Shown in pieces: positions 16,611 through 18,330 of a stretch of DNA of 37,556 bases. The position numbers and the translations under genes are program-made. Where the stretch lies: NCBI GenBank assembly GCA_026003395.1, contig BPHE01000019.1, positions 1-37,556 on the forward strand, in the 5' to 3' direction. The notes beneath the pieces are model-generated. The model saw nothing but the letters and a program-made list of their open reading frames with translations, did no database searches and had not been told where the DNA came from. The stretch is from Vicingaceae bacterium. GTDB lineage: Bacteria > Bacteroidota > Bacteroidia > Flavobacteriales_E > Vicingaceae. Positions within the stretch are counted from its first letter, which is position 1, and each line of letters starts with the position of its first letter.

Positions 16611-17081
16611 TTAATTGCTGTTTTCGGGAATGTATTCAACCCTGAATGGTTTATCTTTCCTGTTTATTTTTATCAATAAATATTGGTTTGTGATCACCGG
16701 AGTTACCGGTGAATCGATTTTTCTCTTTTTGCTTTTGAGATATAAATACAATATCACTTCATTTCTTTTTTCTTTCACATCTTTAAATCGCAAAATAGAT
16801 CCGCCGTGTGAATCTCTGCCTGAAGCAAAAAATAAAACAGCGTGTCTGTCGAAATCGATTAACGGTATGGGTTTGTCTGAAGGTTCTACGCTGTGAATGC
16901 TATCCCAAACATTTTTAAATTCAATTTGATTGTCAAGGACTCTATTTTGTGGTTTGACGTATCCTGAGGCATAAGTACCTTGTTCTATAATTTCATATTG
17001 AAATTTATTTTTGTTGGAAATACCAAAGTTTCTGCAATTGAACAAAAACATTACCGTTATCAATAACCAAAGATGCTTCAT
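16611..17081 (-). CDS. PrcB-like (PrcB_C) envelope protein, copy 1
   Basis: A 156-aa exported protein. Residues 1-16 are a short hydrophobic signal ending FLFNC, a loose lipobox with C16 as the possible lipidated residue. The mature part has the order seen in PrcB C-terminal-like domains: a central 'needed residue then W' helix (FKNVWDSIH), a PxxDF strand ([16 protein letters not shown]), a Gly-Gly turn (SHGGSILRF) and paired strands ending in [14 protein letters not shown]. It is clearly paralogous to the next gene upstream (about 17153-17627), sharing this layout and spacing. The family link is by pattern and is moderately certain; its role in the envelope is unknown. It is 14 nt upstream of thyA. 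Confidence 0.65.
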
Positions 17082-17152: not shown

Positions 17153-17572
17153 TCAATCGGGTTTATCAATTTTAATTATTTTGACAGGTTTATTTGTTCT
17201 GTTTATTTTGACTAAAAAATATAAATGTGTCAAAACTTCAGTAACAAAGTCGTCAGGATTGGGTGATTGCATAAAAACATGCAAGATAATTTCTTTTTCA
17301 TTTTCTTCAACATGGTGTAATTTCAATGTATATCCACCATGATTGAAAGGGCCATAAGAATAGAAAACAACCATGTTTTTATTAAAATCGATTTCCGGTA
17401 GAGGTTCCGGCATGTCTTGGTTCAAACTGTCCCATATTTGTTTAAATGTTTTGTCGGATTGTATTATTCGAAATTGTGCTTGATCAAAGGCATACGCATT
17501 CATGCCTTCTTTAATGATTTCAAAATGCAAAGGGGGAAGGTTGTTGATGGCAGTTTTTGAATCATTTTTCAT
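17153..17572 (-). CDS. PrcB-like (PrcB_C) lipoprotein, copy 2, with signal peptide out of frame
   Basis: The open frame from the ATG at 17572 gives 139 aa with no export signal, yet it is paralogous to the exported gene downstream (FKQIWDSL, PEIDFNKNMVVFYSYG, NHGGYTLKL, LVKINRTNKPVKI). Reading the same frame further upstream gives YLRILLFFACSS just before that methionine: a lipoprotein signal with lipobox FFAC, but the frame closes at a stop (17624-17626) and has no ATG. An ATG for MKRFLF lies at 17627-17625, one base out of frame, across two T runs. Removing one T from them restores MKRFLFYLRILLFFACSS. So either a frameshift mutation has cut off the lipoprotein start or there is a one-base sequence error. 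Confidence 0.7.
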   Translation of the reverse strand: MKNDSKTAINNLPPLHFEIIKEGMNAYAFDQAQFRIIQSDKTFKQIWDSLNQDMPEPLPEIDFNKNMVVFYSYGPFNHGGYTLKLHHVEENEKEIILHVFMQSPNPDDFVTEVLTHLYFLVKINRTNKPVKIIKIDKPD

Positions 17573-17642
17573 ACTGCTGCATGCAAAGAATAAAAGTATT
17601 CTGAGATAAAAATAAAAATCTTTTCATGGCAGTTAAATGTGC

Positions 17643-17774
17643 TTACATCAATCCCATGGGTGTTTTGATTCCTTTTTTTCCATTGCACTTCCGCTGTGAT
17701 GCGCATGATTGGAGCAAACCGGCCAATAAAATTAGAAGCAGGAAAAAACCTAACAATCTTTTACTTTTTTTCAT
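17643..17774 (-). CDS. 43-aa small lipoprotein
   Basis: A short gene not otherwise obvious. The ATG at 17774 overlaps the end of the GNAT gene by 14 nt in another frame. The product has a basic start (MKKSKR), a hydrophobic stretch (7-21) and a good lipobox LLQSC, giving lipidated C24 and a 20-residue basic tail containing KCNGKKGIKTPMGLM. A signal peptide with lipobox arising by chance in the correct operon slot is unlikely. The stop is 15 nt from the intended start of the downstream PrcB-like lipoprotein. I do not recognise a named family; a lysis-type or stress lipoprotein, or a small partner of the PrcB-like proteins, are possible roles (inference). Confidence 0.65.
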   Translation of the reverse strand: MKKSKRLLGFFLLLILLAGLLQSCASQRKCNGKKGIKTPMGLM

Positions 17775-18330
17775 ACATCATAAGTTTTGCATTGCATATA
17801 CAAGGACATCCGCAAATGGGACATTCATAACTTTTTTGCAAGCTCTCGTGTTTCCAAAAGTAGGCAATTTTTCCCAAAGTTTTATATCCCATTCCGGAAA
17901 GCATATTGGCCATGATGTTGCCCGGATAATCCCAAATGAAAGAAAACACCGGTGTTATATTTTCATGTATAAATGATTGATGCAACCGCACTGACAGCAT
18001 CTTCCCAATACCTTTATTTCTCATAAGCGGATAAACACATAAATGTTTTCGCCATCCAACTATTTTATTGTCGTTTAAATTGAGATTTATTTCCGTTTCA
18101 GCCAAATGTTCATGCAGTATTGTTTTGAAATCTTTCCATGCAATTTTCCGACCGACGGCTATTCCCGCCAATTGATTCTGATATACAGCTTTTAAGGCAA
18201 TGTACGGTTGGGTGGGAAAGTTTATCAGTTCGTTTTTAGAAATATAATTTTTCCCGAGGCAAACATTGCATAGTGTATATATCTCATCCAAATCTTCATT
18301 TTGGACAGGATATATTTCACATTTCTCCAT
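17761..18330 (-). CDS. GNAT-family N-acetyltransferase with C-terminal cysteine cluster
   Basis: A 189-aa acyl-CoA-dependent acetyltransferase. The acetyl-CoA-binding motif A is visible as CVYPLMRNKGIGKMLSVRLHQ (the R/Q-x-x-G-x-G loop), followed by a typical strand and helix and the GYKTLGKIAYFWKHESL ending. Two cysteine features are unusual: C21-x-x-C24 near the N terminus and a tail with C170, C173, C175, C177 and C179 in ECPICGCPCICNAKL, suggesting metal binding. The substrate is unknown. It is the first gene of a long minus-strand run and overlaps the small lipoprotein gene. Confidence 0.8.
   Translation of the reverse strand: MEKCEIYPVQNEDLDEIYTLCNVCLGKNYISKNELINFPTQPYIALKAVYQNQLAGIAVGRKIAWKDFKTILHEHLAETEINLNLNDNKIVGWRKHLCVYPLMRNKGIGKMLSVRLHQSFIHENITPVFSFIWDYPGNIMANMLSGMGYKTLGKIAYFWKHESLQKSYECPICGCPCICNAKLMMYEKK

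Follow-up and report, generated by a model that had tools for sequence, protein, structure and literature searches.

Structure of the locus

The window, which is the whole stretch of 37,556 nucleotides that was analysed, contains a short open reading frame on its minus strand at positions 17643-17774. The frame begins with the ATG at 17774-17772, ends with the TAA at 17645-17643 and translates into a protein of 43 amino acids, MKKSKRLLGFFLLLILLAGLLQSCASQRKCNGKKGIKTPMGLM. The sequence-only reading expected routine gene calling to miss so short a frame, although common gene callers accept open reading frames down to about 90 nt. Residues 1-23 (17706-17774) constitute a putative lipoprotein signal peptide, in which the start MKKSKR, with its basic KKSKR cluster, is followed by FFLLLILLAGLLQS, containing the hydrophobic core and leading into the lipobox Cys (LLQSC, with the cut between Ser and Cys). 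A helix is predicted for residues 2-25, and the same layout is found in all 35 rows of the family profile A2. Cys24 (codon 17703-17705), which would be the lipid-anchored first residue of the mature lipoprotein, is invariant both in those 35 rows and in A4. The conserved C-terminal tail, KCNGKKGIKTPMGLM, comprises residues 29-43 (17646-17690) and carries the invariant Cys30 (17685-17687) and Gly41, as seen in A2, in A4 and in column counts from 71 members. In the AlphaFold model of the 43-residue protein, the signal helix is confident and the tail is of low confidence (pLDDT 61-68, pTM 0.34).

The upstream neighbor, also on the minus strand, is a GNAT-like open reading frame of 189 residues (17761-18330), which lies outside the conserved unit. 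As the sequence-only reading had it, this frame and the small gene overlap by exactly 14 nt, and 15 nt separate the stop codon of the small gene from the ATG at 17627, where a PrcB-like lipoprotein apparently begins; the reading's description of the lipobox and of the tail was likewise accurate. The GNAT-like protein has a weak match to Acetyltransf_7 that, like all its domain matches, is below the cut-off, and it possesses a Cys-rich C-terminal tail, ECPICGCPCICNAK.

The downstream PrcB-like gene (17153-17572, minus strand) is 139 residues long as called and contains a PrcB_C domain (PF14343, 31.9 bits; NF033596, E 4.8e-22, below the cut-off). Its frame is open only from 17572, and the start and signal-peptide segment (17573-17627, minus strand) are in another frame. 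In relatives the gene has its signal peptide in frame. The break, which falls in an A/T-rich stretch, would be either a natural frameshift or an assembly error, and is independent of the small gene. A second, more divergent PrcB-like lipoprotein of 156 residues is encoded at 16611-17081 on the same strand (NF033596, E 2.3e-13, below the cut-off) and is grouped with the first by BLAST. The two are diverged PrcB-like lipoprotein genes in tandem.

Conservation and distribution of the small gene

A single-sequence protein search of 60 related genomes found about 20 near end-to-end matches with E values of 1e-9 to 1e-5. Two profiles, A1 with 15 rows and A2 with 35 rows, were then run over 296 Bacteroidia genomes. 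A full-length match to A2, defined as E below 1e-7 and reaching model position 38 or beyond, was counted from the match table in 66 of the 296 genomes, belonging to 16 GTDB families, and the gene is nearly always present in a single copy. A full-length profile match (E below 1e-6) is present in 29 of the 46 genomes that represent the window's own family. The relatives found in a named-genome search, which gave 35 loci, are mostly metagenome bins of Flavobacteriales, Vicingaceae and Chitinophagales. In a phylum-wide sample searched with A1 there was no full-length match outside the class. Within the genomes searched, the predicted lipoprotein family is confined to the class Bacteroidia.

The protein and profile searches bear out the sequence-only proposal of a real, conserved small lipoprotein gene, as the frame, the lipobox and the tail are all kept in the relatives. 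The frame ends directly after the tail in every intact member that was read, and the stop codon itself varies among TAA, TGA and TAG. All four codons are used at the conserved Gly, Thr and Pro positions. For 42 closer pairs the dN/dS ratio is about 0.13, and in the tail pS is 0.77 compared to a pN of 0.27, with synonymous sites near saturation, figures that are biased towards conservation both by the regular expression used to gather the 78 distinct members and by the identity filter used to choose the dN/dS pairs. The bias of collection by motif is absent from the profile searches, in which the motif was not used.

Could the locus hold no protein gene at all? A conserved RNA or DNA element, or a chance reading frame downstream of the GNAT gene, would fit the shortness of the frame and its 14-nt overlap with another gene. 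However, it is the amino-acid sequence that is conserved while synonymous sites change freely, and the frame stays intact with a fixed position of the stop over many families and many genomic contexts, all of which makes this explanation extremely improbable. The 43-residue frame is a real coding gene for a predicted tiny lipoprotein and, judging from the substitution pattern, is kept by selection as a protein.

The gene has nevertheless been damaged in places. One genome of the window's family (G003) carries a decayed copy with a broken frame and a Cys to Trp change, and another of the same genus (G016) has a decayed copy with a Cys to Tyr change and no clear start. These damaged copies show that the gene is dispensable in some lineages. 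The profile search of the 296 genomes found the family to be absent from most Bacteroidia families. The decayed copies and this absence show that the putative lipoprotein is not universally needed.

Anatomy of the family

Members of the family are 36-55 residues long, and the predicted mature parts of the 78 distinct members have 19-25 residues. The mature part consists of the lipid-bearing Cys, a short linker, the motif [KR]-C-x-G, a basic stretch and, at the exact C-terminus, [TV]-x-[MF]-G-x-[ML]. The lipid Cys, the tail Cys and the Gly are essentially invariant across the family. Column counts were made for the 71 members with the commonest tail length. In the first half of their tails the columns read C (70 of 71), [NDG], G (64), any residue, [KR], G/A/K, [IVT] and [KR]; the end reads T/V (55/16), P (62), M/F (68/3), G (71 of 71), any residue, M/L (64/7) and stop. 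The tail terminates exactly at MGx(x)[ML] in the collected members. Some lineages have two or three extra tail residues, KDCRGHRHHVKTDMGGYL, and others have the variants GCDGNRKSKVPFGYM or TCSKKGKTKVNMGYM. Copper binding by an MxxM arrangement was considered and rejected, since some lineages have Phe or Leu in place of the Met residues.

The net charge of the mature part is +2 to +8, with a median of +5 (78 members). Acidic residues at positions +1 to +5 after the lipid Cys are absent from 73 of the 78 members, and five members have one. In this they differ from the surface-exposed Bacteroidota lipoproteins described in PMC12578637, in which two or more acidic residues lie close to the Cys and the acidic export signal falls within a few residues after it. 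The lipopeptide is expected to face the periplasm because it has no acidic surface-export signal after the Cys, and the product is likely a periplasm-facing outer-membrane lipopeptide.

Two sets of loci lie at the edge of the family. In two genomes of family f34 the proteins at the locus centers L051 and L052 are probable distant members, whose tail is NGx(x)[IL] and not MGx[ML]. In family f52, where searches did not find the present tail, the locus centers L062 and L072 encode small lipoproteins with CSSxxxCGGxGG that may be a counterpart.

The weaker profile matches, which end at model position 27-28, belong to a different tiny lipoprotein, in which a signal peptide is followed by SCKSHEKCPAY. 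This second family (signal peptide, then SCKSxEKCPAY[SG]; 39-50 residues; loci L153-L172) is widespread in the Bacteroidia sampled. The window's genome has a copy of it on contig C2 (167290-167364, minus strand; genome G000), and in several genomes the genes are near ung- and osmC-like genes, as identified by sequence. An hhalign comparison of the two families gives a probability of 97.5, with an alignment that is mostly signal peptide. The C-x-S-x-x-K-C spacing is common to both and suggests a possible kinship between the families.

Gene neighborhood and the relationship to PrcB

The sequence-only reading had seen in three exported proteins and a Cys-rich acetyltransferase an envelope module. 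This proposal is not supported. Of the 78 distinct members compared, only the one in the window has a GNAT gene that runs in the same direction and overlaps the small gene, and the module built around it was rejected on that ground. Most members lie directly behind a co-directional gene, and genomes of the window's family usually have pdxJ (identified by sequence), the small gene and a PrcB-like gene in that order. Elsewhere the upstream genes include those for a class I/II aminotransferase, an arginase-family protein, a CNNM-type transporter (by sequence), a SpoU methylase, a C1 peptidase, RlmN, Lnt, a family S49 peptidase and others. The downstream genes outside the window's family are equally varied, and the neighbors are unrelated and mostly housekeeping.

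PrcB is a subunit of the dentilisin complex of Treponema denticola (NF033596/PF14343), and resembles the small protein in being a lipoprotein and, in part of the window's family, in being encoded by the adjoining gene. The small lipoprotein might be a partner of the PrcB-like one, and the two might serve a surface protease complex in the way that PrcB serves dentilisin. A PrcB-like gene is directly downstream in about 20 of the 78 members, all of them apparently in the window's family or close to it. In a clean subset of that family, PrcB accompanies the small lipoprotein in all 8 genomes that have the latter and is missing from all 6 genomes that do not. Yet PrcB is a separate, larger protein, and the two genes are also found apart. 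In the window's family, three genomes have the lipoprotein and no PrcB match (G015, 97% complete; G033 and G036, 87%), and two have PrcB and no lipoprotein match (G028, 95% complete, and G576). PrcB is present in 25 of the 296 Bacteroidia genomes; those among the 25 that lie outside the window's family all lack the small lipoprotein, and the sampled genomes outside it that have the lipoprotein are without a PrcB match. Co-occurrence and adjacency are therefore limited to a subclade within the window's family, and shared descent can explain the co-occurrence because the pattern follows genera. A functional partnership with PrcB is consequently quite unlikely. Since the lipoprotein and PrcB are each found alone, and the neighbors vary, the module is local to the subclade and is not the functional unit of the family. 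A link to type IX secretion could not be judged from occurrence, as SprA_N is present in 289 of the 296 sampled genomes.

Comparison with known families

The window's protein has no match in Pfam at E values up to 1. The best Pfam match of 35 members has an E value of 0.0015, the matches being scattered over several families and none above its gathering score. Taken together, Pfam and NCBIfam matched essentially nothing beyond the signal peptide, and a profile search of the Protein Data Bank gave no match. A search of the open literature with the tail strings and the KCPAY strings found no relevant paper. The putative lipoprotein family is one without a Pfam or NCBIfam model, and has a clean diagnostic tail.

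The PG1828 family of Porphyromonas gingivalis (NF050142) also consists of tiny lipoproteins from Bacteroidota, and its signal peptide is similar. However, the window's protein does not match its model, and individually scanned members score about 15-20 bits (maximum 20.4, cut-off 50) in alignments that end within a few residues past the lipid Cys, leaving the MGx[ML] tail outside. The SCKSxEKCPAY family, which includes the other small lipoprotein of the window's genome, comes closer to NF050142 and is weakly related to it (best E 3e-7, below the cut-off). BamH-BamK of the Bacteroidota BAM complex are accessory lipoproteins of an outer-membrane machine, and have signal-peptide similarity in HMM scans. 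They are, however, large and surface-exposed, with acidic export signals (PMC12578637), and the HMM matches here cover only residues 1-27 or so.

A very small basic lipopeptide could also be secreted or act on its own, either as an entericidin-like lipoprotein toxin or as a pheromone processed from its precursor. The size fits, and one member has a weak match to entericidin B (E 0.091) in the signal region only. Against this, the members' neighborhoods contain no paired antidote gene and no adjoining export or processing gene, and conservation is strong over 16 families. Such a role is very unlikely.

LptM (YifL), from the LPS translocon of E. coli, provides a functional parallel: it is a very small outer-membrane lipoprotein, and the mature part of the present protein would similarly act as a peptide on a partner. 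LptM promotes the oxidative maturation of LptD, and is described as conserved in Enterobacteriaceae (PMC10567701). An assembly factor of this type would use Cys30 in disulfide exchange, or would stabilize an oxidizable form of a β-barrel (LptD or another) folding at BAM. The single invariant Cys, the precedent of LptM and the nature of the protein, which is tiny, single-copy and apparently periplasm-facing, are consistent with such a factor. On the other hand, there is no homology to LptM beyond the signal peptide, the best match to its model NF047847 (16 bits, E 0.0098, cut-off 27.7 not reached) being confined to residues 1-22, and the taxa differ (PMC10567701). Furthermore, LptD is expected in nearly all Bacteroidia, whereas the small lipoprotein family is not. 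This role, which is a more specific form of the docking-peptide explanation described below, is rather improbable.

Proposed function

The best explanation, which we prefer tentatively and at somewhat less than even confidence, is that the gene encodes a tiny outer-membrane lipoprotein, a lipid-tethered peptide that docks on a partner through its C-terminal tail. By established lipoprotein biology, the signal of 23 residues would be cut by signal peptidase II, Cys24 would be acylated, and the product of 20 residues, C*ASQRKCNGKKGIKTPMGLM, would travel to the outer membrane by the Lol route. The length, the Gly and the final hydrophobic residue of the basic tail are nearly fixed, and the tail would be too short for an enzyme. 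It may instead be a docking peptide, the free C-terminus of which binds an outer-membrane or periplasmic partner protein, while the invariant Cys30 could form a disulfide with that partner or with another copy of the peptide. Such a peptide would be similar in style to LptM and other small accessory lipoproteins. As the small gene lacks fixed neighbors, the gene for the candidate partner probably lies elsewhere, and the partner is probably widespread in the class. Some observations count against docking: the final Met is replaced by Leu, and the Met of MG by Phe, in some lineages, and the f34 relatives have a different ending. Given these substitutions, docking would have to tolerate change in the tail.

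A bolder form of the docking-peptide explanation, which is doubtful, is that these lipid-tethered peptides of about 20 residues serve an outer-membrane machine as conserved accessory subunits throughout the Bacteroidia. Recognition of the partner would run through the free [TV]-x-M-G-x-[ML] C-terminus, and the single Cys would lock it; together with the SCKSxEKCPAY peptides, the family would constitute a hidden superfamily of mini-lipoproteins.

At a minimum, the locus represents a protein family that lacks a model and has a cleanly diagnostic tail. Gels, proteomics and annotation easily overlook a conserved peptide of about 20 residues, and several outer-membrane machines of Bacteroidota have been solved only recently, with unexpected subunits. 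If the small lipoprotein is a true subunit or assembly factor, it would offer geneticists a simple way into envelope assembly in the Bacteroidia.
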